Origin: an uncultured Spirochaetales bacterium
GTDB lineage: Bacteria > Spirochaetota > Spirochaetia > Sphaerochaetales > Sphaerochaetaceae
Direction of reading: 5' to 3'
Assembly: GCA_937902565.1 (NCBI GenBank)
Contig: CALFMX010000043.1
Span: 1-12,358, forward strand
DNA: 12,358 bases
The translations under genes and the position numbers were made by a program. Under the pieces are notes generated by a model. That model did not search any database, was not told where the DNA came from, and saw nothing but the letters and a program-made list of their open reading frames with translations. Below are positions 1 to 12,358 of the stretch, in pieces (position 1 is the stretch's first letter; each line of letters opens with the position of its first letter).

Positions 1-345
1 CTCTCTCACTGTGGTGAGCAGCCCCTCTTCTTCCAGGACATCATGCTGCTCCCTTCCAATTCTTTTTTTCCTTCGGTGGAATACTACGTTATCGGCCTCT
101 ACATAGAGCATTCGTCCCACGACGTCACATACGGCCGCTATCTCTTCCTCTTCCAATCCCTCCTCACTGAAGTCCGTGACCCGGGCATACGGTCCATACA
201 GGTCGACCGTCACCTGGATATCCTCCAGGTTGCGGTCGTAGACACGCATGCAATCTGTGTCGCTCTGGAGCATCAAGCGACGCATCTCCAAGCCATTCTT
301 TTTCAGTATCTTTCCAAAATCTTTCAAGACATAATCTGCAATCAT
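1..345 (-). CDS. RlmK-like 23S rRNA methyltransferase, N-terminal part (cut by window edge)
   Basis: This reading frame runs without a stop from an ATG at 345 to the left edge, giving the first 115 residues of a longer protein. It resembles the region in front of the catalytic domain of RlmK-type (RlmKL C-terminal half) 23S rRNA guanine-N7 methyltransferases. The pattern MRVYDRNLED followed by VDLYGPYA (about residues 33 to 53) matches the family's YR-YD-DLPEY-AVDLY stretch. A later RRKKRIGREQ segment and EEG-L-TVRE (about residues 92 to 115) match the K-R-GxxQYE and acidic/V-E pattern that normally precedes the NL-DYLDTGLFLDHR catalytic block. That block would lie outside the window, so the SAM-binding motifs cannot be seen. 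The gene is divergent from the operon starting at 416. The function comes from remembered family patterns; a related RlmI/RlmK methyltransferase is possible. Confidence 0.55.
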   Translation of the reverse strand, partial: MIADYVLKDFGKILKKNGLEMRRLMLQSDTDCMRVYDRNLEDIQVTVDLYGPYARVTDFSEEGLEEEEIAAVCDVVGRMLYVEADNVVFHRRKKRIGREQHDVLEEEGLLTTVRE

Positions 346-415
346 CGGTCTGCTCTTTCTGCAACGCAGTGTATATGCTAATATGGAAAAAAGCTAGAGA
401 GCAGAGGTCGTAGGA

Positions 416-880
416 ATGGATGATGATGCACAAGCCTTCTTGGAAGAACTGGAGTCGCGTCATGGCGCGCCGGTAGGCTGGCGGACATATGCCACATGGT
501 ATGGAAACAACCACAGTGTCTTTCGAGAGTTCGGTGTGTTTTTCTATCGGTGTGAAGGACGCTTCTACTTCGAGGATTTCGAGCGCTCCCCCTCACTCCT
601 TGGTATCTCGCTCAAGCCCAAGAAAGCCAAGGCCCCCTTTGTCCGGTTCGAGGGCTCCTTCTCTGCCAGCGATGTCGTGATGACCCGCCCGGTGCCCAAG
701 AACATGGCCCGACAGATCATCGACGGCAAGCGGGTAAGCGAGCGGATCCGCGACGTCAACATAGTGGATCGGCTCTTTCGGCAGATGGTCGAGATGGTCG
801 TCCTCACCGATGGGACGATCCACTTCTTTGAGCTGATGGCGCGCAAGGACTTCATCGACCAGATCAACACAACACTATAA
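416..880 (+). CDS. Conserved-looking hypothetical protein, first gene of a sugar-nucleotide operon
   Basis: This 154-residue protein does not match a family I recognise. It starts with an acidic MDDDAQAFLEELE segment, then a stretch rich in aromatic residues (WRTYATWYGNN near 22 to 32, FGVFFYRCEGRFYFEDF near 39 to 53), a basic patch (KPKKAKAP near 67 to 74), and an amphipathic C-terminal half. There is no signal peptide or membrane segment, so it is probably cytosolic. The start at 416 is supported by AGAGG eight bases upstream. The stop lies only ten bases before the next gene, so it is almost certainly co-transcribed with the phosphohexomutase and galE. Co-transcription hints at a role linked to envelope sugar metabolism, but the sequence shows no catalytic motif. 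Upstream, TAATAT at 379-384 could be a -10 element, but no convincing -35 accompanies it. Confidence 0.8.
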   Translation: MDDDAQAFLEELESRHGAPVGWRTYATWYGNNHSVFREFGVFFYRCEGRFYFEDFERSPSLLGISLKPKKAKAPFVRFEGSFSASDVVMTRPVPKNMARQIIDGKRVSERIRDVNIVDRLFRQMVEMVVLTDGTIHFFELMARKDFIDQINTTL

Positions 881-890
881 GAGGTACAGC

Positions 891-2228
891 ATGAGTGCAT
901 TCAAGGCATATGATATCAGGGGAATCTACAACAAGGACTTCGACAAGGAGACGGTCTATAAAATCGGCTACTTCATCCCCAAGCTCCTCAAGAGTCCGGT
1001 CGTCCTGGTCGGTCGCGACGTACGCACCACCAGCGATGAGATCTTCGCTGCCCTCTGTCGGGGCGTCACCGACAGTGGCGCCGATGTGTGGGATATCGGC
1101 CTCGCCACAACCCCGATGGTCTACTTCTGCACGGTCCACTTCAAGGTTGATGCTTCAGTGCAGATCACCGCAAGCCACAACCCGGCCATCTACAACGGGC
1201 TGAAGATCAGCCGCACCAAGGCAGTGCCCGTCGGGTCGGACAGCGGGCTCAAGGAGCTTGAACGGATGGTCAATGAGGAGGCGATCATCGTCTCCTCCAC
1301 CAAGGGCACCATCATAGAGAAGGATGGCAAAACACCCTACCTCGCCTTCCTCCAGGAGTTCGACCTCGATATCGAGGGGCTCAACCTCTCCATCGACTGC
1401 TCCCACGGCATGGCAAACCTCCTGGTAAAGGAGCTCTTGGGTGAGAATCACCACTACCTCTACGACCACTTCGACGGCACCTTCCCCGCCCATGAGCCCA
1501 ATCCGCTCGACACGGAGAACTGTGAGGACCTCAAAAAAGCGGTCATAGCCAACAAGAGTGACATTGGCGTCATCTTCGATGGAGACGCGGACCGGGTGAT
1601 GTTCCTCGACGAGAGGGGACGGTTCCTGCAACCCGACTACATCACCGCACTGCTGGGCCACTACTACCTCGCACGTGAGAAGGGACGGGTCCTTATCGAC
1701 ATCAGGACCAGCCGGTCAACGAGCAACTACCTTGCATCGCTCGGCGGTGAGGTCCATACCTGGAAGGTCGGCCATGCGTTTGCCAAGAACAAGCTCCGTG
1801 AGCTTGGGGCAATCTTCGGAGGCGAGCTTGCAGGCCACTACTACTTCAGGGACTTCTTCAACTGTGACAGCGGCTTCTATGCCGCCCTCATCGTCCTCAA
1901 CGTGACCGCCGAATTGAAGCGCTCTGGCATCACCATCGGCCAATTCATCGATTCGGTCGTCACCTTTGCCAACAGCGGGGAGATCAACTTCAAGCTCGAG
2001 GAGAAGGATGAGGCGGTCAAGGGGCTCTACAAGCGCTACGTCACAGAGGGGAACCCAACCACCGTGATGGACTTCGATGGCTATCGCATCGAATACCCCA
2101 CCTGGTGGTTCAACGTACGCAAGTCCAACACCGAACCCTATCTGCGCCTCGTTGTCGAGGCCCAATCGCGCAGAGAGCTCGACGAGAAAGTCAGCGAACT
2201 CTCTACGCTGATACAGAGTTTCAACTAG
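891..2228 (+). CDS. Phosphomannomutase/phosphoglucomutase (alpha-D-phosphohexomutase family)
   Basis: The enzyme interconverts hexose 1-phosphate and 6-phosphate through a phosphoserine, supplying mannose-1-P or glucose-1-P for nucleotide sugars. All four family signatures are present in its 445 residues: AYDIRGIY at 6-13, the catalytic TASHNP at 93-98 (phosphoserine Ser95), the Mg-binding DGDADR at 230-235, and the phosphate-binding RKSNTEP at 410-416. The sugar-specificity loop reads GGELAGH at 310-316, against the GEMSGH typical of the mannose/glucose mutases, so exact sugar preference is open. Length is normal for the ManB/AlgC group. AGAGG about seven bases before the ATG sets the start. 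The gene follows the 154-residue protein by 10 bases and precedes galE by 9, so the three form an operon with a likely role in making sugar donors for the envelope or exopolysaccharide. Confidence 0.93.
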   Translation: MSAFKAYDIRGIYNKDFDKETVYKIGYFIPKLLKSPVVLVGRDVRTTSDEIFAALCRGVTDSGADVWDIGLATTPMVYFCTVHFKVDASVQITASHNPAIYNGLKISRTKAVPVGSDSGLKELERMVNEEAIIVSSTKGTIIEKDGKTPYLAFLQEFDLDIEGLNLSIDCSHGMANLLVKELLGENHHYLYDHFDGTFPAHEPNPLDTENCEDLKKAVIANKSDIGVIFDGDADRVMFLDERGRFLQPDYITALLGHYYLAREKGRVLIDIRTSRSTSNYLASLGGEVHTWKVGHAFAKNKLRELGAIFGGELAGHYYFRDFFNCDSGFYAALIVLNVTAELKRSGITIGQFIDSVVTFANSGEINFKLEEKDEAVKGLYKRYVTEGNPTTVMDFDGYRIEYPTWWFNVRKSNTEPYLRLVVEAQSRRELDEKVSELSTLIQSFN

Positions 2229-2237
2229 GAGATTTTT

Positions 2238-3230
2238 ATGAAGGTATTACTCTTTGGAGGGGCCGGGTATATCGGTACACACGTTGCCCTTGAATTTCTT
2301 CAGCGTGGTGATGACGTCGGTATCTTCGACAACTTCAGCAGTGGACTGCGATCCAATGTCGATAACCGGGCCACCCTCTACGAGGGCGACATCAGGAACA
2401 AGGATGAGGTCGTCAAAGCCCTGGAGGATGGCTGGGACACCATCATCCACCTGGCAGCCTTCAAGGCTGCCGGAGAGTCGATGGTCTCACCGATCAAGTA
2501 CTCCGAGAACAACATCACCGGCTCACTCAATCTCATCACCGCAGCCATCGAGACGGGGGTGAAGAACTTCATCCTCTCCTCCTCCGCTGCTGTCTATGGG
2601 GAGCCGCAATACCTCCCCGTCGATGAACAACATCCTACCAAACCTACCAACTACTACGGCTACACCAAGCTCGCCATCGAGGAGAACCTCGCATGGTACA
2701 GTGAGCTCAAGAAGCTGAATTACGTCTCGCTACGCTACTTCAATGCGGCAGGCTATGACCCTGAGATGAGGATGCTCGGCCTTGAGAAGAACCCTGCCAA
2801 CCTCATACCGGTAGTCATGGAGGTCGCCGCCGGCATCAGACCCAATATGCTCGTCTTTGGAACCGACTACGATACCCACGATGGCACCGGGGTACGTGAC
2901 TACGTCCACGTCACCGACCTGGCACGCGGGCACGTCCTGGCCGCCGACTACCTGGCAGCGGAGAAGGGAAACCTCGTCGTCAACCTCGGCAGTGAGGCAG
3001 GCCTCTCGGTCGGTGAGATCATCGAGACCGCCCGATCCATCACCGGACGGGAGATCAACGTGGAGTATGTGGGAAGGCGTCCCGGCGATCCGGCAAAACT
3101 CGTCGCGTCCAGCAAACGTGCCCACAAGGCCCTTGGATGGAAAGCCGAATACTCATCCGTCGACTCGATCATCGAGACGACGTGGCGCGTCTATGAGGCG
3201 CAGGGCAGCAACCTGAACCCCAAGCCGTAA
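2238..3230 (+). CDS. galE: UDP-glucose 4-epimerase
   Basis: GalE interconverts UDP-glucose and UDP-galactose using tightly bound NAD, linking galactose use to glycan synthesis in the cytosol. This 330-residue protein is a complete extended short-chain dehydrogenase. It has the Rossmann motif GGAGYIG at 7-13, the NAD-ribose aspartate in FDNFSSG (Asp31), SSSAAVYG at 114-121 with the catalytic serine region, the catalytic pair Tyr140/Lys144 in YGYTK, and YFNAAG at 167-172. The GalE-type substrate segment DGTGVRDYVHVTDLA lies at 215-229, and RRPGDPAKLVA at 280-290. The DGTG-RDY-HV-DLA and RRPGD signatures favour GalE over other sugar epimerases. AGGAGA lies six bases before the ATG. It is the last gene of the operon with the hexomutase and is followed 20 bases later by a strong terminator. 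Confidence 0.94.
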   Translation: MKVLLFGGAGYIGTHVALEFLQRGDDVGIFDNFSSGLRSNVDNRATLYEGDIRNKDEVVKALEDGWDTIIHLAAFKAAGESMVSPIKYSENNITGSLNLITAAIETGVKNFILSSSAAVYGEPQYLPVDEQHPTKPTNYYGYTKLAIEENLAWYSELKKLNYVSLRYFNAAGYDPEMRMLGLEKNPANLIPVVMEVAAGIRPNMLVFGTDYDTHDGTGVRDYVHVTDLARGHVLAADYLAAEKGNLVVNLGSEAGLSVGEIIETARSITGREINVEYVGRRPGDPAKLVASSKRAHKALGWKAEYSSVDSIIETTWRVYEAQGSNLNPKP

Positions 3231-3250
3231 GCAGTCCACCGTATAAAGAA

Positions 3251-3286
3251 TGAGAGACAACCCACGCGGATTGTCTCTCATTTTTT
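3251..3286 (+). terminator. Rho-independent terminator after galE
   Basis: A perfect 10-base-pair stem (TGAGAGACAA at 3251-3260 with TTGTCTCTCA at 3271-3280) encloses a 10-base loop and is followed by six T residues. It ends the operon running from 416 to 3230. It also insulates the operon from the oppositely oriented tRNA, whose 3' end lies three bases further on. Confidence 0.9.
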
Positions 3287-3288
3287 AG

Positions 3289-3361
<73 letters not shown>

Positions 3362-3382
3362 ATCTTCTTTTGAACGATTGGA

Positions 3383-3411
3383 ACATTACCCCATAGTGCT
3401 ATTTCTGTCAA
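3383..3411 (-). promoter_or_regulatory. Promoter of tRNA-Asn
   Basis: On the minus strand a perfect consensus -35 box TTGACA (3411-3406) is followed by a 17-base spacer and a weak -10 box TAATGT (3388-3383). Transcription would start near 3376, leaving a leader of about 15 bases before the mature tRNA 5' end at 3361. The -35 box overlaps the loop side of the inverted repeat at 3395-3433. Confidence 0.6.
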
Positions 3412-3433
3412 GCAGTATCAGAGAAATAGCACT
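3395..3433. repeat. Perfect 12-base inverted repeat around the tRNA-Asn -35 box
   Basis: AGTGCTATTTCT (3395-3406) is repeated exactly in inverted form as AGAAATAGCACT (3422-3433), with 15 bases between. One arm occupies the spacer of the tRNA promoter and the other lies just upstream of the -35 box. No T-run follows in either direction, so it does not look like an intrinsic terminator. It could be an operator or an RNA hairpin in read-through transcripts of the lipoprotein gene. Confidence 0.7.
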
Positions 3434-3438
3434 CCATG

Positions 3439-3465
3439 AAAGACGGCCACCCAAGGGTGGCCGTC
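3439..3465 (-). terminator. Terminator of the nucleotidase lipoprotein gene
   Basis: Read on the minus strand, GACGGCCACC and its complement (arms 3456-3465 and 3442-3451) form a GC-rich 10-base-pair stem with a 4-base loop, 20 bases after the stop codon. The following tract is short (TTTC), so termination may be weaker than at the galE terminator. Confidence 0.7.
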
Positions 3466-3485
3466 CAATCAGAGTACTCTCCTTC

Positions 3486-6263
3486 CTACTTGACAGGATA
3501 GCTCTTCTTCAAGAAGTCGGCGAAGACATCGCTGAGCAGCGAACCCTCGGTGAGGACTCGGCCGAACATTGAGTATCCATCGCCACCAGCGGCCATGAAG
3601 TCGTTGGTTGCAACCTTGTAGGTAGCGTTCTTGTCGATCAGCTTACCGTTGAGCAGGACACGCATGATCCTCTTGCCCGGCTCTGCGAAGCGGTTGTAGA
3701 CAACCTGCAGGTCGGACTGCGGGAATCCACCGTTCTCACCGGGGAGCATTCGGTAGCCATGCTCAAGGGCAGCATAGACGTCAGCACCGGTGATCTCGGC
3801 GACGGTGATGATGTTGGTGAACGGCAGGACGTTGACCACGTCTCCGAGCGTTACGTTTCCAGCCTTCATCGAGGCACGGATACCACCGCCGTTGGTGATG
3901 GTGAAGTCTGCACCACTCTCCTCGGTCATCGCACGGGTGATGAGGCGAGAGAGGTTGGTCGGCTTGGTGCGCACATTGCCGCGCTCACCATCGAGGAACT
4001 CAGGCACGTAGGCGATGACCTGGCCAAGCTTGTCAGCAAGCTGGGCGGTCATGTAGCCGACATACTCATCGACCTCAGGATCGTTGGGTACATCAGCAAT
4101 GCCCCACTCTGCGGCAAGTGCGGAGTCCTTGGCGTTCAGTACATCTTCAGCGGGGATCAACATCGGATACGTTGCCGTTACCTTGTTGTTCTTCACGTGA
4201 ATCTGTACCAGGCCGAGGTTCTTCAGATACTCACCGGTAGAGACGATCAGGGTGTCACCAACCTTCATACCATTCTTGAGAGTGGTGTGGCTGTGCCCGT
4301 CGATAAAGAGGTCAATCCCCTTGATACGACTGACGATCTGGTCGCTGGTAAGCCCACTCTCACCGTCCGGATCGAGGCCGATGTGGCCAAGGACGATGAT
4401 GTAGTCGACGTACTCGCGAGCCATGTCGATCGCTTCCTGACCAATCTGGAAGATCTCGTCATTGGCAAAGTAGACGCCTTCGACGTTCTTCGGGTGGGTC
4501 TTGGTGGCCGTATCGGGAGTGGTGAGTCCAACTACTGCAATCTTGAAGCCGTTGAAGTCGTAGACCTGGTATGGCTGGAAGAGCAGGTAGCCGTCTCTGT
4601 CGGTGACGTTGGCACTGAGCACCTTGATATCGGTGTAGGTCTCAGCGAGTTCGGCAGCCTCGAGCAGGCGGTCCGTACCGTAGTTGAAGTCGTGGTTGCC
4701 CGGGGCAACTGCGTCGTATCCGAGCATGTCGAGCAACACGCCGACAGTCTCACCCTCAAACATATTGGCCAGGTTGGTGCCGTGGGTCACGTCCCCGGCA
4801 TCAAGGACCAGAATGTTATCGGTGATCGAACGACCAAACTTCAGCATAGTGGCAAGCTTGGAGTAGCCCATGCCGCCATCACCAGGTACGATACGTGCGT
4901 GCACGTCGTTGGTGTGAACCACAAAGAGGTCAAACTCATCGAACGCTGCATCATTCTTGATGATTTCAACAACACCAAGCGGATACTCAGCTGCAGTGCG
5001 GGCTACAGGAGCCGGTGCTGCCGGAGCGGGGATCACAACAGGTGCTGGAGCCGGGGCGGGAGCCGGAGCCGGAGCCGGAGCGGGAACCGCTGCAACTTCG
5101 ACCGGGGCGATCAGGGCGGCAATCACCGGATCCTCAGGGACCGTCACCTTGAGGGTATACCCCATTGCATTGGCCAGACCCTCATACTCAGCGGCGATCG
5201 CACTTGCAGAGGGATCGAGGATGTCGGCGGCAGGGAGCCTCAGGGCGTACTCACCGGCAAGCTTCCCGTTGACCACGGAGAGCTGTACGGCTCCGACGCT
5301 CTTGAGCTTCTCATCGGCTCGCACGATCAGGGTACCATTGACTTCCTTAGCCGTGGCGCTGCCATTGCCATCGACGATCAGGTCGATACCATCGACGTTT
5401 GCGGCCACCAGCTCGCTGGTGAAGACTCCGCTGCTGCCCAGGTCACTGAGGACCACCAGGTAATCAACATAGTCCTTGGCAAGGTCGACTGCCCACTGGG
5501 CGTTATCAAAGATCAGGTCACTGTCAAAGGTCACGCCCTGGATCTGCTTGGGAGCAGTCAGGCCGGCAACTCCAACCTTGAATCCGTTGAAGTCGTAGAC
5601 CGCGTAGGGCTGGGTGACGAAGTAGTCCTCGTTGTCGAGGGCATTCACGCTGAGGGCTGCGGCATGCTTGGTTCCGGTGATGCCGGTTGCAAGCTGAATC
5701 GCCTGAGGAGTGTAGGCATCGTAGCCCAGCAGGTCAATCACAGCAGCTGCCGTCATGGCGGCTTCTGCGGGGACCTCCCCGACGCTGCCGCTGTTGAGGA
5801 GCAGCCAGTTGTCGGTGATTGCCATTCCAGCCTTCAGGGCAGTGGAGAGCTTCGCAATGCCAAGACCGCCGCCGTCACCATAGATGTCGCCGTTCAGGTC
5901 GTTGGTGTGCACGATGAAGAGGTCAAAGGTCTTTGCCCCGTCAGCGTTTTTCACAACTTGCTTGCCACCATAGGGCAGATCCTCTCCAACCAGCTCTTCA
6001 ATCTCGGGGACTGCCACGGGGGCTACCACAGCGACTGGTGTCGGTTCGGGAGCAGGCGCCGGAGCTGGTGCCGGGACAGGTTCCGGAACCGGTGCTGGCT
6101 CTGCAACGGGTGGCGCTACAGGAGCCGCAGGCTCTAGAGCAGGTTGCACAACAGGAGCTGGGGGAATCGGCTCAACCTTTGCGGTGCTCTTACAGCCCAC
6201 AAGGGAGAATGCCAATAGCGTTACCAGCATTGCTGTCATAATAGTTCTTGAAAGACGTTTCAC
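3486..6263 (-). CDS. Lipoprotein of the 5'-nucleotidase/2',3'-cyclic phosphodiesterase family with duplicated metallophosphatase domain
   Basis: This 925-residue surface or periplasmic enzyme probably removes phosphate from nucleotides. Counting from the GTG start, it has a lipoprotein signal with lipobox LVGC (Cys24), a Pro/Ala linker (31-85), a first metallophosphatase domain (about 112-360), a second Pro/Ala linker (391-421), a second metallophosphatase domain (about 440-700) and a 5'-nucleotidase C-terminal domain (about 740-920). The second domain keeps the two-metal site: Asp453 and His455 in NDVH, Asp488/Asp491 in DAGD, Asn523-His524 in GNHD, His627, and His657/His659 in GHSH. The substrate domain keeps NGGGIR (791-796) and GGDGY (893-897). 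The first domain has the same layout but lacks nearly all these ligands. Usual family members have one metallophosphatase domain and 500 to 600 residues. An alternative ATG start is at 6278. The gene stands alone. Confidence 0.93.
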   Translation of the reverse strand: MKRLSRTIMTAMLVTLLAFSLVGCKSTAKVEPIPPAPVVQPALEPAAPVAPPVAEPAPVPEPVPAPAPAPAPEPTPVAVVAPVAVPEIEELVGEDLPYGGKQVVKNADGAKTFDLFIVHTNDLNGDIYGDGGGLGIAKLSTALKAGMAITDNWLLLNSGSVGEVPAEAAMTAAAVIDLLGYDAYTPQAIQLATGITGTKHAAALSVNALDNEDYFVTQPYAVYDFNGFKVGVAGLTAPKQIQGVTFDSDLIFDNAQWAVDLAKDYVDYLVVLSDLGSSGVFTSELVAANVDGIDLIVDGNGSATAKEVNGTLIVRADEKLKSVGAVQLSVVNGKLAGEYALRLPAADILDPSASAIAAEYEGLANAMGYTLKVTVPEDPVIAALIAPVEVAAVPAPAPAPAPAPAPAPVVIPAPAAPAPVARTAAEYPLGVVEIIKNDAAFDEFDLFVVHTNDVHARIVPGDGGMGYSKLATMLKFGRSITDNILVLDAGDVTHGTNLANMFEGETVGVLLDMLGYDAVAPGNHDFNYGTDRLLEAAELAETYTDIKVLSANVTDRDGYLLFQPYQVYDFNGFKIAVVGLTTPDTATKTHPKNVEGVYFANDEIFQIGQEAIDMAREYVDYIIVLGHIGLDPDGESGLTSDQIVSRIKGIDLFIDGHSHTTLKNGMKVGDTLIVSTGEYLKNLGLVQIHVKNNKVTATYPMLIPAEDVLNAKDSALAAEWGIADVPNDPEVDEYVGYMTAQLADKLGQVIAYVPEFLDGERGNVRTKPTNLSRLITRAMTEESGADFTITNGGGIRASMKAGNVTLGDVVNVLPFTNIITVAEITGADVYAALEHGYRMLPGENGGFPQSDLQVVYNRFAEPGKRIMRVLLNGKLIDKNATYKVATNDFMAAGGDGYSMFGRVLTEGSLLSDVFADFLKKSYPVK
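5001..5087 (-). repeat. Pro-Ala repeat encoding the inter-domain linker of the nucleotidase lipoprotein
   Basis: A low-complexity run of alternating proline and alanine codons (GCT/GCC/GCG with CCG/CCC/CCA) encodes a rigid linker between the two metallophosphatase domains. On the plus strand it appears as repeated GGAGCC and GGAGCG units, and it is a likely place for repeat-length variation. Confidence 0.75.
6009..6173 (-). repeat. Pro-Ala-Val-Glu repeat encoding the linker after the lipidated cysteine
   Basis: This stretch encodes a long run of PAPV, PEPV and PAPA units just after the lipoprotein cysteine. It would hold the catalytic part of the protein away from the membrane. The codons are varied, so it is less uniform at DNA level than the second linker. 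Confidence 0.7.
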
Positions 6264-6269
6264 GTGTTT

Positions 6270-6275
6270 CCTCCT
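6270..6275 (-). promoter_or_regulatory. Shine-Dalgarno AGGAGG that favours the GTG start at 6263
   Basis: AGGAGG lies at 6275-6270 on the minus strand. It forms codons 2 and 3 if translation began at the ATG at 6278, but sits six bases before the in-frame GTG at 6263, which is ideal spacing. No good ribosome site precedes the ATG. Starting at GTG removes five residues and leaves a normal lipoprotein signal beginning KRLSRTIM. Confidence 0.65.
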
Positions 6276-6390
6276 CATGATGTTCTCATGTGTCGTTGTT
6301 TACGTACTCACAAACACTATAACACAGACTGTCGTAATCGGATACTGTAAAAATTCGCTAAAAACCGACGTTTACCACTGTCTGTCATAG

Positions 6391-6422
6391 AAAAAAAGCC
6401 TGCGAATAAGAATTCCACAGGC
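6391..6422 (-). terminator. Rho-independent terminator of the 56-residue protein gene
   Basis: On the minus strand GCCTG at 6422-6418 pairs with CAGGC at 6402-6398, and the stem extends inward to nine pairs with two G-T wobbles. It is followed by seven T residues (6397-6391). It lies 26 bases after the stop codon at 6448. Confidence 0.8.
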
Positions 6423-6447
6423 ATCTTGCGTTCAGGGTGAGACCCTC

Positions 6448-6618
6448 TTACATCAAATCCTTGGGCTTGCGGGCGGTATTGCCGGACTTCTCGCAATACG
6501 CCATGTGGCGAAGCTTGCCATTCTCGAAAACCGAGCGCATCTTGATAGCGCCGCCCCAGCGACTTGTCATTTCCTTTGAGCCCTCTCGACGGGCGTTCTT
6601 AGATACGTTACCAGCCAT
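6448..6618 (-). CDS. Small basic protein of unknown function (56 residues)
   Basis: A complete small gene framed by its own signals: a near-consensus promoter at 6657-6685, a GGAGGG ribosome site (6632-6627) about eight bases before the ATG at 6618, and a strong terminator at 6391-6422. The product is strongly basic, with many Lys and Arg residues spread along its length (KNARREGSKE near 7-16, KMRS at 26-29, KLRH at 35-38, ARKPKD at 49-54). It has one cysteine (Cys42) in MAYCEKSGN and a central SRWGGAIKMRSVFENGK stretch. There is no signal peptide or membrane helix. Size, charge and expression signals resemble a ribosome- or nucleic-acid-associated protein, but I recognise no family. The coding call rests on these matching signals and an intact frame. 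Confidence 0.8.
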   Translation of the reverse strand: MAGNVSKNARREGSKEMTSRWGGAIKMRSVFENGKLRHMAYCEKSGNTARKPKDLM

Positions 6619-6656
6619 ATCGGTATCCCTCCATACTTAGCTTACATGCAGTGCTT

Positions 6657-6685
6657 ACTATACTCAGTACAGCGATTCTAGTCAA
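6657..6685 (-). promoter_or_regulatory. Sigma-70-type promoter of the 56-residue protein gene
   Basis: On the minus strand TTGACT (6685-6680) and TATAGT (6662-6657) are separated by exactly 17 bases, each one mismatch from consensus. This is the best promoter-like match I found in the window. Transcription would start about 30 bases before the ATG. Confidence 0.8.
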
Positions 6686-6747
6686 ACCCTCAACAAAAAA
6701 TAGAACGAGTGTTGCCTCAACCACCCTCCCCTCATTACACTGGTGGC

Positions 6748-7032
6748 ATGAAGCGGCCCTCTTGGTATCTACGCCAACTCTTTCTCGCTCCCGTCTACCT
6801 CTACAAGGGGGTGCTCTCCCCCTTCTTCGGCCCTTCGTGCCACTACCACCCCTCCTGCTCCACCTATATGATCGGTGCAGTCAATGCGCATGGCATCGTG
6901 AAGGGCTTCATCATGGGCATGGCCAGGATTTTGCGCTGCAGCCGCTGGTATATGGGCGGCGATGACCCCATCCCCGAGGTGTGGTCGTGGCAGGCTATCA
7001 AGGATGGATATACCCTCTTCAGAAGGCGTTGA
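6748..7032 (+). CDS. yidD: Membrane protein insertion efficiency factor YidD
   Basis: YidD is a small membrane-attached protein that helps YidC and Sec insert inner-membrane proteins. From the ATG at 6748 this copy has 94 residues and carries the family core: a hydrophobic, amphipathic start (LRQLFLAPVYLYKGVLSPFFGPSC), Cys31 and Cys37 in the GPSCHYHPSCSTY segment, AHGIVKG at 48-53, RILRCS with Cys64, and GGDDPIPE at 70-77. The frame could also open at a GTG at 6709, but that would add 13 unconserved residues, so the ATG is preferred even though only a weak GGTGG precedes it. In many genomes yidD sits beside rpmH, rnpA and yidC; here it stands alone. Its stop codon directly abuts that of the uridine kinase coming from the other strand. 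Confidence 0.93.
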   Translation: MKRPSWYLRQLFLAPVYLYKGVLSPFFGPSCHYHPSCSTYMIGAVNAHGIVKGFIMGMARILRCSRWYMGGDDPIPEVWSWQAIKDGYTLFRRR

Positions 7033-7644
7033 TCAGCCGGAGAGCTCCTTGACGAAGGGGATGAGGACGCTCAGCGCATTCTCGTTGTACCCGCCCTCGG
7101 GGATGATCAGGTCCGCATAGATCTTCGTCGGCTCGATGAAGTTGAAGTGGCCAGGTCTGACGACCTCCAGATACTGGTTGCAGACACTCTCGACGGTCCG
7201 CCCACGCTCTGCAATGTCTCGCTTGAGGCGGCGGATGAAGCGGATGTCGTCGGGGGTATCGACGTAGAGCTTCAGGTCGAGCAACTCCCGGATCTTCGGC
7301 GAGTGGAGGACCATCAACCCCTCGATGATCACCAATGGCCGGGGCTGGACGGTCACCGACTCATCCCGCCTGCGGTGGTGGACGAAGTCATAGAGCGGCA
7401 TCTCGATGCTCTCGTACCTCTTGAGCATGGCGAGGTGCTCCTCGAGCAGCTCCATGTCAAAGGCATCGGGATGGTCATAGTTCAGCCTGCACCGCTCCTC
7501 GTAGGGCATGTTAGGGTGGGCTTTATAGTAATTATCGTGATAGACGACGCTGACATGTCGCCCAAAATTGTCCTTCAGATGCTCGGTCAGGGTGGTCTTA
7601 CCGGAGCCCGTGCCCCCCGCAATTCCAATGATCATAGTATCCAT
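7033..7644 (-). CDS. udk: Uridine kinase (uridine/cytidine salvage)
   Basis: Udk phosphorylates uridine and cytidine to their monophosphates in pyrimidine salvage. From the ATG at 7644 the product has 203 residues, normal for bacterial Udk. It carries the P-loop GGTGSGKTT at 10-18, HDNYYK at 36-41, YDHPDAFD at 56-63 (the family's N-F-DHPDAFD), PLYDF at 83-87, IIEG at 106-109, RRLKRDIAERGR at 138-149, and the C-terminal HFNFIEPTK-ADLIIPEGG segment at 166-185. Start sites at 7650 and 7635 are also possible; 7644 is chosen because GGGG lies about nine bases upstream. The same frame stays open to 8094, but everything beyond about 7690 belongs to the foreign block. The stop abuts that of yidD with no room for a terminator, so convergent transcription may overlap. 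Confidence 0.93.
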   Translation of the reverse strand: MDTMIIGIAGGTGSGKTTLTEHLKDNFGRHVSVVYHDNYYKAHPNMPYEERCRLNYDHPDAFDMELLEEHLAMLKRYESIEMPLYDFVHHRRRDESVTVQPRPLVIIEGLMVLHSPKIRELLDLKLYVDTPDDIRFIRRLKRDIAERGRTVESVCNQYLEVVRPGHFNFIEPTKIYADLIIPEGGYNENALSVLIPFVKELSG

Positions 7645-7678
7645 ACACATCTGCCCCATTTCGTCTTGATTCGCAATT

Positions 7679-7687
7679 ATCTTACCA
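7679..7687 (-). promoter_or_regulatory. Possible extended -10 promoter element of udk
   Basis: The minus strand reads TGG followed by TAAGAT (7687-7679), an extended -10-like element about 35 bases before the start codon. No -35 box is recognisable; it may have been lost at the junction or may not be needed. Confidence 0.3.
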
Positions 7688-7689
7688 CA

Positions 7690-7757
7690 ATCCGCCCGGG
7701 AATGGAATGGCTGTTTGGTCTTTTTTGATGGCGTGATATCCCAACGCATTCCACTAA
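7690..7757. other. Probable junction between spirochaete-like and clostridial-like DNA
   Basis: To the left lies the udk upstream region. To the right is a terminator for a missing upstream gene, followed by genes with different codon use and family origin. The exact breakpoint cannot be placed from the sequence alone, since this stretch is non-coding on both sides. Confidence 0.55.
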
Positions 7758-7795
7758 CGGCTTTGCGCAGCCGGGCTGCCCAAAGCCGATTTTTT
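7758..7795 (+). terminator. Strong Rho-independent terminator upstream of asnB
   Basis: CGGCTTTG (7758-7765) pairs with CAAAGCCG (7781-7788). One mismatch then leads to five further pairs (7767-7771 with 7775-7779) around a three-base loop, and a run of T residues follows to 7795. No gene ends just before it on the plus strand, so it probably served a gene lost at the junction. Confidence 0.8.
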
Positions 7796-7807
7796 CTGTG
7801 CCCTGCG

Positions 7808-7834
7808 CGCAATTGTTGCGTTTTTGCATATACT
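7808..7834 (+). promoter_or_regulatory. Possible promoter and operator of asnB
   Basis: TATACT at 7829-7834 is a plausible -10 box about 30 bases before the asnB start. No good -35 box is at the right distance. Just upstream lies a short palindrome, CGCAA-TTG-TTGCG (7808-7820), overlapping the region where RNA polymerase would bind. Confidence 0.3.
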
Positions 7835-7864
7835 AACGGTGTAAACCTGAAAGGAGCGCTGCAT

Positions 7865-9715
7865 ATGTGCGGAATTGCCGGATTTATTTGCTTTGAGCGG
7901 GACAATGGCCGTCCGGAGTGGGCGGCCATTGCCCATTCCATGGGGGAGACCCTGAACCACCGCGGGCCCGATGACAAGGGCCAGTGGGCTTGCCCCGCCG
8001 GGGTGCTGATCCACCGGCGCCTGTCGGTCATCGACCCGGACCGGGGGCGCCAGCCCATGACCAGAACCCAGGGGGAAAAGGAGTACACCATCATCTACAA
8101 TGGCGAGCTCTACAACACCGAGCAATTGCGCCAGGACCTGGTCCAGCGCGGCTATCGCTTCGAGACCTCCTCGGACACCGAGGTTTTGCTCACTGCCTAC
8201 ATGGCCTATGGCGAAGAGGTAGGGAGCCATCTGGAGGGCATCTACGCCTTCGTCATCTGGGACGGGGCCAGGGGGCAGTTTTTTGCCTGCCGGGACCGGT
8301 TCGGCGTCAAGCCCTTTTTCTATGCCTGGACCGACGACGGCGCCTTTGTATTCGGCTCTGAGCTCAAGGCTCTGTTTGCCTACCCCGGCCTCAGGCCCCG
8401 GGTGGACTCCGCCGGGTGGTGCGAGGTGCTGGGTCTGGGGCCGGCCCGGACGGCCGGGGTGGGGGTTTTTGCAGGCGTAGAAGAGCTCAAGCCCGCCCAT
8501 TACCTGGTCCTCACCCCCGGCGGCGCCCGGCAAGCGCAGTATTGGACCCTGGTCAGCCGCCCCCACACCGAGGACTATGACGACACCGTCCACCACGTGC
8601 GCGAGCTGGTAAGCGGGGCCATCCGGCGGCAGCTGGTGTCCGACGTGCCCCTTTGCACCTTCCTCTCGGGCGGGCTGGACTCCAGCGTCATCTCTGCGGT
8701 GGCTGCCCTGGACTATGGGCAGCGGGGTCTGCCCCCGCTGGAGACCTACTCCTTTGATTACACCGACAATGCCAAATACTTTCAGCCCTCTGCCTTCCAG
8801 CCCGACGCCGACTGGCCCTGGGTGGAGCGCATGGTGGACACCTTCCACACCCGACACAGGGTGCTCACCTGCCCCATCCCGGATCTGGTCCACCTTTTGG
8901 ATGAGGCCGTGGCGGCCAAGGACCTGCCCGGCATGGCCGATGTGGACTCCTCCCTGCTTTACTTCTGCCGCCAGGTGGCCCAGACCCACGTGGTGGCCCT
9001 GTCCGGGGAGTGCGCCGACGAGGTCTTTGGCGGCTACCCCTGGTTCGAGCGGCCCGAGATGCTTTACGCCGACACCTTCCCCTGGTCCCGGGACCTGGCC
9101 GCCCGGCGCGAGGTCTTCCAGCAGCCCCTTTGGAAACGGCTGGGGGTGGAGGATTATGTCCAGTACCGCTATGGCCAATCGGTGGCTGAAACCCCGCGGC
9201 TGGAGGGGGAGGACCGGGAAAATACCCGGCGGCGCGAGGTGGCCTGGCTCAACCTCAACTGGTTCATGTCCACCCTGCTGGACCGCAAGGACCGCATGTC
9301 TATGGCCTCCGGCCTTGAGGTGCGGGTGCCCTTCTGCGACCACCACTTGGTGGAATACGTGTGGAACATCCCCTGGAGCATGAAGGCCATGAACGGGCAG
9401 CGAAAGCAGGTGCTGCGGGACGCGGCGGAGGGGCTGCTGCCCGTGGATGTGCGCCGGCGGCCCAAAAGCCCCTACCCCAAGACCCACAACCCCCTCTACG
9501 AGGAGCTGGTCCGGGCCAGAGTGGCCACCATCCTGGACGACCGGCACGCCCCTCTCCACTCCCTGGTGGATGAGCAGGTGCTGCGCGCCGGACTGATGGT
9601 CTCTGCCGGGGACTACGGCCGCCCCTGGTTCGGCCAGCTGATGGCCGGGCCCCAGATGCTGGCCTATCTTGTCCAGCTCAACACCTGGATGGAGCGCTTC
9701 GGCCTGAGCGTCTAG
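7865..9715 (+). CDS. asnB: Glutamine-hydrolysing asparagine synthase
   Basis: AsnB makes asparagine from aspartate, glutamine and ATP. The 616-residue product has the complete two-domain layout. The N-terminal Ntn glutaminase starts with the catalytic Cys2 (MCGIAGF) and has NHRGPDD at 31-37 and YNGELYN at 78-84. The C-terminal synthetase has the ATP-pyrophosphatase loop SGGLDSS at 268-274 and GECADEVFGGY at 381-391, then the conserved RKDRMSMASGLEVRVPF segment after residue 470. The start at 7865 is fixed because Cys2 must be exposed after removal of Met; AAAGGAGC lies about seven bases before it. Leucine is nearly always CTG and GC is high in third positions, unlike block 1. The family is the long AsnB type common in Firmicutes. 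It appears monocistronic, with the terminator at 7758-7795 in front. I see no clear terminator behind it. Confidence 0.95.
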   Translation: MCGIAGFICFERDNGRPEWAAIAHSMGETLNHRGPDDKGQWACPAGVLIHRRLSVIDPDRGRQPMTRTQGEKEYTIIYNGELYNTEQLRQDLVQRGYRFETSSDTEVLLTAYMAYGEEVGSHLEGIYAFVIWDGARGQFFACRDRFGVKPFFYAWTDDGAFVFGSELKALFAYPGLRPRVDSAGWCEVLGLGPARTAGVGVFAGVEELKPAHYLVLTPGGARQAQYWTLVSRPHTEDYDDTVHHVRELVSGAIRRQLVSDVPLCTFLSGGLDSSVISAVAALDYGQRGLPPLETYSFDYTDNAKYFQPSAFQPDADWPWVERMVDTFHTRHRVLTCPIPDLVHLLDEAVAAKDLPGMADVDSSLLYFCRQVAQTHVVALSGECADEVFGGYPWFERPEMLYADTFPWSRDLAARREVFQQPLWKRLGVEDYVQYRYGQSVAETPRLEGEDRENTRRREVAWLNLNWFMSTLLDRKDRMSMASGLEVRVPFCDHHLVEYVWNIPWSMKAMNGQRKQVLRDAAEGLLPVDVRRRPKSPYPKTHNPLYEELVRARVATILDDRHAPLHSLVDEQVLRAGLMVSAGDYGRPWFGQLMAGPQMLAYLVQLNTWMERFGLSV

Positions 9716-9733
9716 GCGGGATCGTCAGGGAAT

Positions 9734-9751
9734 CTTCACACTTTCTTTATT
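9734..9751 (+). promoter_or_regulatory. Possible OmpR-family response-regulator box upstream of the BceAB-type transporter
   Basis: CTTCACA (9734-9740) and CTTTATT (9745-9751) are imperfect direct repeats with an 11-base period, the arrangement bound by many OmpR/BceR-type regulators. It lies 64 bases before the transporter start, and BceAB transporters are usually controlled by such regulators. No regulator gene is present in the window. The repeats are only partly alike, so this is a weak call. Confidence 0.25.
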
Positions 9752-9814
9752 CCTTCTCAATGGAAACTTTCCTCCTTCCTGTTAGTCTAGTGCTGACATG
9801 AAGGAGGTTTTTTT

Positions 9815-10588
9815 ATGACCAACGAATCCATCCTCTCCGTCTCGCACCTGGAAAAGGTCTATGGCGGACGGGGCAACCATACCAAGGCGCTGGACAATCT
9901 CAGCTTCGAGGTGCGTCCCGGCGAGTTTGTAGGCATTATGGGGGCGTCGGGCAGCGGCAAGACCACCCTGCTCAACTGCATCTCCACCATTGATAAGCCC
10001 ACTGCGGGCACCATCACTGTGGACGGCACCGACATCACCGCCCTCAAGGGCAAGGCGCTGTCCCGGTTCCGCCGGGAGAGACTGGGCTTCATCTTCCAGG
10101 ACTGCAACCTGCTGGACACCCTCACCGCCTTTGAAAACATCGCCCTGGCCCTGACCATCCTGGGCACACCTACGGGACAAATTGACAAGCTGGTCAACGC
10201 CACCGCCGGTCTGCTGGGTCTGGAAAAGGTGCTGAACAAATACCCCTACCAGCTCTCCGGCGGCGAGCAGCAGCGGGTGGCCGCCGCCCGGGCCATCATC
10301 ACAAGCCCCGCCCTCATCCTGGCCGACGAGCCCACCGGCGCCTTGGACTCCAAGTCCGCCCAGATGCTGCTGGGGCAGCTGGCGCAGCTCAACCGGCAGC
10401 AGCAGGCCACCATCGTCATGGTCACCCACGATGCCTTTACCGCCTCCTGGTGCCACCGCATCCTCTTCATCAAGGACGGCCAGCTCTTCCACGAGCTGCG
10501 GCGGGACGGACAGGACAGGCGTCAGTTCTTCAGCCGCATCATCGGCGTGGTCAGTCAACTGGGAGGTGACGCGGCCGATGTTCTATAA
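9815..10588 (+). CDS. BceA-type ABC transporter ATP-binding protein (peptide antibiotic resistance/sensing)
   Basis: This 257-residue ATPase would power a BceAB-type exporter that frees lipid II-cycle targets from antimicrobial peptides or signals their presence. It carries Walker A GASGSGKTT at 43-51, the Q-loop in FIFQD (Gln95), the ABC signature LSGGEQQ at 147-153, Walker B LILADE at 167-172 with catalytic Glu172, the D-loop GALDSK at 175-180, and the switch His205 in VTHD. The extra C-terminal tail ending in GGDAADVL is typical of BceA-like ATPases and longer than in LolD/MacB. AAGGAGG sits eight bases before the ATG. It overlaps the permease start by 11 bases, so the two are translationally coupled. 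The usual partner two-component system is not visible. MacB/FtsE-like ATPases are less likely because of the tail and partner. Confidence 0.92.
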   Translation: MTNESILSVSHLEKVYGGRGNHTKALDNLSFEVRPGEFVGIMGASGSGKTTLLNCISTIDKPTAGTITVDGTDITALKGKALSRFRRERLGFIFQDCNLLDTLTAFENIALALTILGTPTGQIDKLVNATAGLLGLEKVLNKYPYQLSGGEQQRVAAARAIITSPALILADEPTGALDSKSAQMLLGQLAQLNRQQQATIVMVTHDAFTASWCHRILFIKDGQLFHELRRDGQDRRQFFSRIIGVVSQLGGDAADVL

Positions 10589-11288
10589 GCTGGCACGAAA
10601 GAATGTCACCCGCAGTCTCAAGGACTACTCGGTGTACTTTATCACCCTGGCGCTGGGCGTCAGCATCTTCTACATCTTCAACTCTCTGGAAAGCCAGTGG
10701 GCCGTGCAGATGCTGGCCCAAAACGCCCACTACATGGTGGAGTCCATCCTCGTTTTTATGAACGTCTTCTCCGTCTTCGTCTCGGTGGTGCTGGCCTGCC
10801 TGGTGCTGTACGCCAACACCTTTTTGATCAAGCGGCGCAAACGGGAGCTGGGCACCTATTACCTACTGGGCCTGTCCACCGGCAAGGTCTCCCTCCTGCT
10901 GGTGCTGGAGACCCTGCTCATCGGCCTGTTTGCCCTGGTGGTGGGCATCCTGCTGGGCGTGGCCTTCTTCTATGTGGACTATGAGGCGCCGGTCGACAAA
11001 CTGCGCGTCGCCTATGAGGGCATCGTCCAGGCGTCGAAACACTGGGACGGCGAGGTGCAGGTGATGCAGGTGACCGACATCACCGAGCGGGTGCTGCAGC
11101 TTCGGTGCCTGGCCAGCGCGCGGTCCGCCGGGGGGGCCTTCGATCTGCGCTGCGAAATCCGCGAGAAGCTGATGGCCTATATGCGCGATCATTGCCGCGA
11201 GGCCCTGCCGCGGGATCGTCTGGAATGGCCGCAAGGGGAGGCGGTGGCGCGCCCGCCTATTCCGCCAGCGCCTGTTGACCCAGCCTGA
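10578..11288 (+). CDS. Chimeric frame: N-terminal part of a BceB-type permease joined to the end of a MscS channel
   Basis: The frame opens at 10578 within the end of the BceA-type gene, with GGGAGGT upstream. It encodes about 130 residues of a BceB/FtsX-type permease: MFYKLARKNVTRSLKDY, a first membrane segment (about 20-38), a second (about 55-80), the cytoplasmic KRRKRELGTYYLLGL signature, and a third (about 105-130). After GILLGVA the sequence abruptly becomes a soluble alphaproteobacterial MscS-type C-terminal segment (YVDYEAPVDKL onward) and stops at 11288. A true BceB has about 650 residues, ten membrane segments and a large extracytoplasmic domain; all of that is missing. No known family combines these halves, so the 236-residue product is very likely an artefact of joining. 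If the fusion were real it would be a dead transporter. Confidence 0.75.
   Translation: MFYKLARKNVTRSLKDYSVYFITLALGVSIFYIFNSLESQWAVQMLAQNAHYMVESILVFMNVFSVFVSVVLACLVLYANTFLIKRRKRELGTYYLLGLSTGKVSLLLVLETLLIGLFALVVGILLGVAFFYVDYEAPVDKLRVAYEGIVQASKHWDGEVQVMQVTDITERVLQLRCLASARSAGGAFDLRCEIREKLMAYMRDHCREALPRDRLEWPQGEAVARPPIPPAPVDPA
10962..10985. other. Probable junction between clostridial-like and alphaproteobacterial DNA
   Basis: The left side encodes permease residues GILLGV and the right side encodes VDYEAPVDKLR of a MscS channel, so the break lies in or near the codons for AFFY. It falls inside a reading frame that stays open by chance. Everything to the right is caulobacterial in character. Confidence 0.75.
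10968..11288 (+). CDS. Mechanosensitive ion channel (MscS family), C-terminal fragment
   Basis: About 106 residues after the junction resemble the cytoplasmic C-terminal domain of MscS-family channels that release solutes during osmotic downshock. The supporting features are VDYEAPVDKLRVAYEGIV, then HWDGEVQVMQVTDITERVLQLRCLASARSAG, and FDLRCEIREKLMAYMRDH, a segment order I know from proteobacterial small-conductance channels. The membrane pore helices and the middle beta domain are absent because the gene is cut by the junction. The tail after LEWPQG is proline-rich. The gene ends at 11288 and its last 32 bases overlap, on the other strand, the end of the gene at 11257-11679. Assignment rests on memory of family patterns. 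Confidence 0.6.
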   Translation, partial: FYVDYEAPVDKLRVAYEGIVQASKHWDGEVQVMQVTDITERVLQLRCLASARSAGGAFDLRCEIREKLMAYMRDHCREALPRDRLEWPQGEAVARPPIPPAPVDPA

Positions 11289-11679
11289 CGGCATCTTCCA
11301 GGGACATTGTGTCGGTCGGCTTCTGGCTTGCGCAGGCGACGGCCAGAAGCTCGGCTGCATCCCCGCCGGGCGCGGCAGGATAGGCGGGGGCGTTGTCCGG
11401 CGTGGCGGGGCCTTCGGTTCTGTCGGCGCGCAGGGAGGCGAAGTCCAGCCGGTCCGCCGTCATGGCCCGGCAATCGAACGCCCACCGAGACCAGCCCCCG
11501 ACATAGAGAACGTCGCCGACCTTGAACCCTGTCTCGGTCACCTGGAGCTCGCGCATCCGGGCGATGTCGCCGTCGCGTGCGATAGAGTTCACATCGGCAT
11601 AGATGGCGAAACGGCCGACGCCGACGGGCGCCAAAGCAGGACTGGGATCGGCCAGCAAGGCCAGCATCAGGGTGACCAT
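11257..11679 (-). CDS. Small, possibly secreted protein, surface-adhesin-E-like
   Basis: This 140-residue protein starts at 11679, 13 bases inside the end of smc, so its translation is probably coupled to smc. The first 18 residues ([18 protein letters not shown]) could be a short signal peptide with a cleavage site after ALA. The rest has the pattern of small exported alphaproteobacterial proteins related to the surface-adhesin E fold: [25 protein letters not shown] (near 19-45), a tryptophan and cysteine in GWSRWAFDC (near 62-70), and a second cysteine in LLAVACAS (near 112-119) that could form a disulphide with the first. No catalytic motif is visible. The family assignment is tentative and the product could simply be called hypothetical. 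The 3' end overlaps the MscS fragment by 32 bases. Confidence 0.7.
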
Positions 11680-12358
11680 GCGACCAGGGTCTCGGCTTGA
11701 TTCAGGTCCACGCTGACCAACTGGCTCATGCCGCGTTCGGGCATGGTGACGCCGTACAGGCGGTCCATCCGGCTCATGGTCACCGGGTTGTGGGTGATGA
11801 CGATGAAGCGGGTGTCGGTGCGCGACCGCATCTCGTGCAGCATCCGGCAGAAGCGGTCGACGTTGGCGTCGTCCAGCGGGGCGTCCACCTCGTCCAGCAC
11901 GCAGACGGGCGCCGGGTTGGCCAGGAAGACGCCGAAGATCAGGGCCGCCGCCGTCAGGGCCTGCTCGCCGCCGCTCATCAGGCTCATGACCGACAGCCGC
12001 TTGCCGGGCGGGCAGGCGTAGATTTCCAGACCGGCCTCCAGCGGGTCGTCGCTTTCGACCAGCTTCAGCTCGGCCTGACCGCCGCCGAACAGGGCCTCGA
12101 ACAGGGCCTTGAAGTTGGCGTTGATGACGTCGAAGGCCGCCACCAGCCGCTCGCGGCCCTCGGCGTTCAGCTCGTCGATGCCGTCGCGCAGCTTGGCGAT
12201 GGCCTGGGTCAGGTCGATGCGTTCCGACTTCATGGCGCCCAGACGCTCGCCGTATTCGGCGGCCTCTTCCTCGGCCCGCAGGTTGACCGCGCCCAGGGCC
12301 TCGCGTTCGCGCTCCAGCCCGGTCAGCAGGCTCTCGGCGCCGGCCGTGTCCGGCGGAC
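11667..12358 (-). CDS. smc: Chromosome segregation protein SMC, C-terminal ATPase head (cut by window edge)
   Basis: SMC dimers extrude and organise chromosomal DNA. The frame enters from the right edge and ends at 11667, giving 229 C-terminal residues of a protein normally about 1150 long. Visible parts are the end of the coiled coil with the family motif [11 protein letters not shown] (about 21-31), and the head segment [26 protein letters not shown]. The ABC signature [11 protein letters not shown] (about 125-135), Walker B with D-loop [13 protein letters not shown] (about 151-163) and the switch histidine in ITHN (about 189) follow. The tail [17 protein letters not shown] is typical of alphaproteobacterial SMC. 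The N-terminal Walker A half and hinge lie outside the window. Codon use is GC-rich with CTG leucine and GTC valine. RecN or SbcC are excluded by the signature and tail. Confidence 0.93.

Follow-up and report, generated by a model that had tools for sequence, protein, structure and literature searches.

A contig of three bacterial lineages in a spirochaete genome, most likely joined by the assembler

The window analysed here, the entire 12,358-base contig C43 of genome G000, combines DNA of three lineages across two breakpoints, each of which lies within an open reading frame, and it is almost certainly an artefact of either assembly or library preparation. G000 comprises 2,334,507 bases in 332 contigs, with a completeness of 86.08% and a contamination of 2.1%, and it appears to be a metagenome-assembled genome derived from a mixed sample. 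We propose that three co-sequenced bacteria, a spirochaete, a gut clostridium and Brevundimonas, contributed its DNA and that the assembler is the most likely agent of the joining; in such a mixed sample, contigs would have been extended across short words common to unrelated genomes, with spirochaete udk running into clostridial udk at 7457-7482 and a clostridial permease gene running into Brevundimonas mscS at 10949-10961. The hybrid proteins encoded across these points would then be present in no organism.

Results

Three segments of different origin

On each side of the breakpoints the contig belongs to a different lineage and is collinear with the relatives of that lineage up to the breakpoint (Table 1), and no match listed from the sets of 60, 300, 121 and 11 genomes searched continues beyond a join interval by more than about 13 bases. 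The spirochaete segment is called Sphaerochaeta-like because several named uridine kinases among the proteins matched by the udk product are from Sphaerochaeta sp. The original prediction had described the genes to the left of the permease-MscS join as Firmicutes-like and those to its right, smc included, as caulobacterial. The former description fits about 7457-10949, while positions 1 to about 7476 are spirochaetal; the latter agrees with the 94.7% identity to B. nasdae over 10949-12356, and the smc 3' end at the right end of the contig gave an SMC_prok_B match.

Further observations concern the spirochaete segment itself. It contains a tRNA-Asn (GTT) at 3288-3361 on the minus strand and, at 3486-6278 on the same strand, the gene for the 5'-nucleotidase-like lipoprotein, the N-terminal half of which is repeat-like and the linker of which is rich in proline and alanine. 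In several congener loci, L005, L013 and L014 among them, the 5' part of this gene aligns to two adjoining places, a pattern that suggests tandem copies there. A conserved open frame of 56 amino acids at 6448-6618 (minus strand) has listed matches mostly at 69-77% across genus, family and class.

Table 1. Segments, joins and hybrid frames of contig C43, with the related join on contig C200.
Feature	Position	Strand	Description
Spirochaete (Sphaerochaeta-like) segment	1..7476		Collinear with congeners, best 82% over 13-7476 (G006); hypothetical protein, phosphomannomutase, galE, tRNA-Asn, 5'-nucleotidase-like lipoprotein, yidD, udk 3' part
Oscillospiraceae segment	7457..10961		83% (G137), 79% (G269); udk 5' part, asnB-type asparagine synthase, ABC ATPase, BceB-type permease 5' part
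Brevundimonas segment	10949..12358		94.7% to B. nasdae, collinear over 10949-12356; mscS 3' end (+), convergent open frame (-), smc 3' end (-, cut by contig end)
Chimeric udk frame	7036..7650	-	Residues 1 to about 57 clostridial, about 58-205 spirochaete
udk join	7457..7482		Within udk, conserved codons for DHPDAFD
Fused open frame	10578..11285	+	236 aa; permease residues 1 to about 124 and MscS residues 268-379
Permease-MscS join	10949..10961	+	Word close to both parents
Third join	C200 9511-9532		Limits of agreement with G006 and with Cupriavidus

The permease-MscS join

As had been claimed from the sequence, one frame (10578-11285) turns from permease into the C-terminus of MscS, with the DNA identity switching at 10949-10961, and both parent genes are truncated at that point: about 124 residues are left of a permease that is 615 and 617 amino acids long in two Oscillospiraceae relatives, and residues 268-379 are left of an MscS protein that has 379 in B. 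nasdae. Pfam places an FtsX-type permease domain (PF02687) at residues 62-132 of the fused frame, the permease of which we take to be BceB-type. Like a permease of this family, the frame keeps the N-terminal residues and, as it does in the relatives, follows a gene for an ABC ATPase, but the other 490 or so residues are absent, and with them the complete protein of about 600 amino acids. Its MscS part is 98% identical to B. nasdae and 99% to protein P0002; unlike the Brevundimonas MscS, however, it is without the N-terminal part and the beta-domain, and Pfam finds no PF00924 in the fused frame, this domain being located at 197-263 of P0002, upstream of the retained piece.

The breakpoint was placed at 10949-10961 on account of the starts of the Brevundimonas alignments, the switch in identity per 100 bases and the clostridial mismatches. 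Among 20 Brevundimonas/Caulobacterales loci the DNA alignment starts at 10949 in 17, at 10950 in two and at 10961 in one. Per 100 bases, identity to B. nasdae (L022) is 31 to the left of 10949 and 98 to the right, and two Oscillospiraceae relatives give 81 and 81 to the left of 10949, falling to 30 and 31 from 10962. All 19 aligned clostridial rows mismatch at 10962, and 16 do so already at 10961; in one of the 19, L066 (G090), BLAST carries the alignment to 10974 despite mismatches. A join had been predicted at 10950..10990 and does lie there, although the breakpoint falls at the left edge of that span, and the peptide FFYVDYE of the fused frame already belongs to the Brevundimonas side.

Searching one-per-species genome contigs with six peptide patterns returned 22 loci encoding a relative of the fused protein, none of which holds both parts together. 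Twenty of them, from Brevundimonas/Caulobacterales, align solely from residue 125 onward. The other two are from Oscillospiraceae: L042 aligns over residues 1-128 and L041 over residues 1-145 with 56% identity, so that its protein match overruns the join by about 20 residues, while its DNA alignment stops at 10939. The fused protein was also compared with about 5.8 billion proteins, yielding 4667 candidates of 0.55-1.75 times the query length and 309 matches. Among the 120 of these that were listed, 29 match the left half only, 90 the right half only and one both, the last being the window's own protein, P0001. Another genome with the same fused gene, which would have spoken for a real join, was thus sought in both collections and is not among the 22 loci or the 120 listed proteins. 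A plasmid search with the join region returned the MscS side only (five records).

The open frame and the continuous contig are what could be expected had a spirochaete acquired, by horizontal transfer, the clostridial block and an adjoining Brevundimonas mscS-smc fragment, giving rise to a permease-MscS hybrid. Yet neither junction of the contig occurs in any listed relative, no mobile-element domain (integrase, transposase) was found among the 10 frames scanned with Pfam, and genes are cut mid-frame at both joins, for which two insertions from other phyla would be needed. The native continuation of udk is, moreover, located on another contig that is itself falsely joined (see below). We therefore consider such transfer exceedingly improbable, and assign an equally slight chance to a real permease-MscS fusion in a spirochaete formed from two foreign phyla by microhomology-mediated rearrangement. 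If the contig is an artefact, the open frame across the join would be a coincidence, requiring the same strand and a one-in-three frame.

The udk join

A second join, which the original prediction had missed, lies within udk, at a word encoding the peptide DHPDAFD, which is conserved in both the spirochaete and the clostridial lineages. The whole window was searched against 60 relatives, 59 of which gave a match; among the matches listed, those of congeners that reach udk stop at 7476-7482, and what is listed for spirochaetes past this point consists of short stretches, at 66-76%, in the conserved ABC-ATPase and smc genes. One locus, L006, has one extra udk piece of 42 bases at 7591-7632, beyond the join. 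From the other side, the clostridial (Oscillospiraceae) udk alignments begin at 7444-7457.

The encoded protein changes in the same manner. Seven congener loci share 83-91% identity with the udk product over residues 58-205, but just 5-7 of 20 positions over residues 38-57. A protein search with this product gave 7998 matches; among the 120 listed, only the window's own protein scores high in both halves, and P0219, which ranks next over the first 58 residues, agrees at 42 of 56 positions there and at 71 of 147 in the remainder. G000 itself gave no uridine kinase match other than this chimeric gene.

A native continuation and a third join on contig C200

In the congener G006, udk is followed by more spirochaete sequence, and the G000 equivalent of that sequence is found at 8163-9532 of contig C200, in frames for lepA and galM. 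C200 is 9,677 bases long and leads from galM into the first udk codons, after which the final 144 bases or so encode part of an amino-acid permease (PF00324). Cupriavidus sequence agrees with C200 from 9511 onward save at 9527 and 9530, and G006 agrees up to 9532 save at 9524. The tail is 86.8% identical to Cupriavidus metallidurans and 85.9% to a Burkholderia plasmid; E. coli, considered as a source, reaches 72.9% at proY in the rows shown (325 of 5426 genomes). Since the first two are closer, we call this fourth source betaproteobacterial-like only.

The native lepA, galM and start of udk on C200, taken with the rest of udk on C43, imply that one native gene was broken between two contigs, each with a different foreign partner. 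The predicted chimera is upheld, although not as a chimera of two sources, there being three in C43 and a fourth in C200. The accompanying claim that an assembly or ligation chimera is the simplest explanation also stands, in view of the collinear sides, the lack of the fusion in any listed relative and the further joins in C43 and C200. Other contigs of G000 may carry similar joins.

In contrast to the spirochaete part, for which the native continuation was found on C200, an Oscillospiraceae probe of 13 kb and a Brevundimonas probe of 20 kb gave only matches of 40-342 bases at 65-85% in G000 outside C43. Such matches are as expected for conserved families, and the absence of both continuations from G000 is expected if the genomes concerned lie outside this bin. 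Mis-binning alone, i.e. the placing of correct contigs from different species in one bin, would sit well with a genome as fragmented and incomplete as G000, but the foreign DNA is within a single contig and the two foreign-lineage probes have no other strong place in the genome; this explanation carries next to no weight. As far as the two probes show, the foreign pieces sit inside contigs and are not whole mis-binned contigs.

The middle block

Within the Oscillospiraceae segment, G137 matches 7820-10938 at 83% and G269 matches 7821-10957 at 79%; of the 300 genomes of this family that were searched, 291 gave a match of some kind. The udk gene and the block share a contig, in the window's relative orientation and 1.9 to 11 kb apart, in five of the 11 genomes of the closest genus (G137, G269, G350, G482 and G486); of the remaining six, two carry them on separate contigs and four are without a listed match for one or both. 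Next to the ATPase-permease pair, asnB is found in G137, G269 and G090. Other arrangements occur as well: in G062 about 87 kb separate asnB from udk, which has the opposite orientation, and asnB and the permease are 12 kb apart; udk, asnB and permease are each on a different contig in G063; and udk is nearby in the other orientation in G141 and G179. Between 7650 and 7820 there is one uninformative match of 20 bases. We provisionally take 7457-10949 to be one natural block, and a possible extra join between 7650 and 7820 would leave the verdict unchanged.

Discussion

Misassembly is consistent with three joins between phyla that all lie at short similar words, two of these joins being within a single native gene, and the assembler alone is the probable maker of the joins. 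The shared word is about 12-13 bases at the permease-MscS join, 20-26 at the udk join and 22 with three mismatches on C200; these lengths are bracketed from relatives because the clostridial and spirochaete parent strains are not among the sets searched. As a rough guide, assuming uniform bases, chance alone would give two random genomes of 3.2 Mb about 19 exact 20-mers and about one exact 22-mer in common. A word of 12-13 bases is below the usual assembler word length and counts against the assembler, unless the true clostridial parent shares more of the sequence. The continuous contig and the fact that both hybrid frames are open likewise count against an artefact.

The other form of artefact is a chimera made in vitro during preparation of the library, whether through ligation, through amplification or through template switching at microhomology, which was then faithfully assembled. 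Short similar words at all three joins would suit template switching as well as they suit joins in an assembly graph. However, C43 has two joins, the native udk is broken on both contigs, by a different partner in each, and rare random chimeric molecules would not normally be expected to dominate an assembly. Such an origin is accordingly a minor contender, though one with appreciably more in its favour than horizontal transfer or mis-binning.

Passages of the GUNC paper describe chimeric contigs, in which fragments of several sources are misassembled, as an error class in metagenome-assembled genomes, and they present mis-binning as the expected major error and misassembly as relatively rare (PMC8201837). 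Set beside those passages, C43 resembles the chimeric contigs in mixing sources within a fragmented genome of low reported contamination, and differs from the mis-binning expected there in that its foreign parts lie within one contig, with frames open across the breakpoints.

The finding is a matter of quality control only, and constitutes a warning about this one genome, the contamination of which is stated as 2.1% and yet one contig of which covers three phyla. Where chimeras are joined inside conserved genes and preserve an open frame, they can be mistaken for gene fusions or horizontal transfer. The fused gene is almost certainly not a real gene. In the protein searches P0001 and the hybrid uridine kinase P0121 each appear as an entry with a single member from a single contig, and probably neither occurs in any organism. 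Separately, we observed an entry of 244 amino acids, P0012, the longest contig of which has 1,100 bases and in which an EamA transporter domain (PF00892) accompanies the N-terminus of a permease (PF02687); it is possibly a chimera of the same kind as the fused frame.
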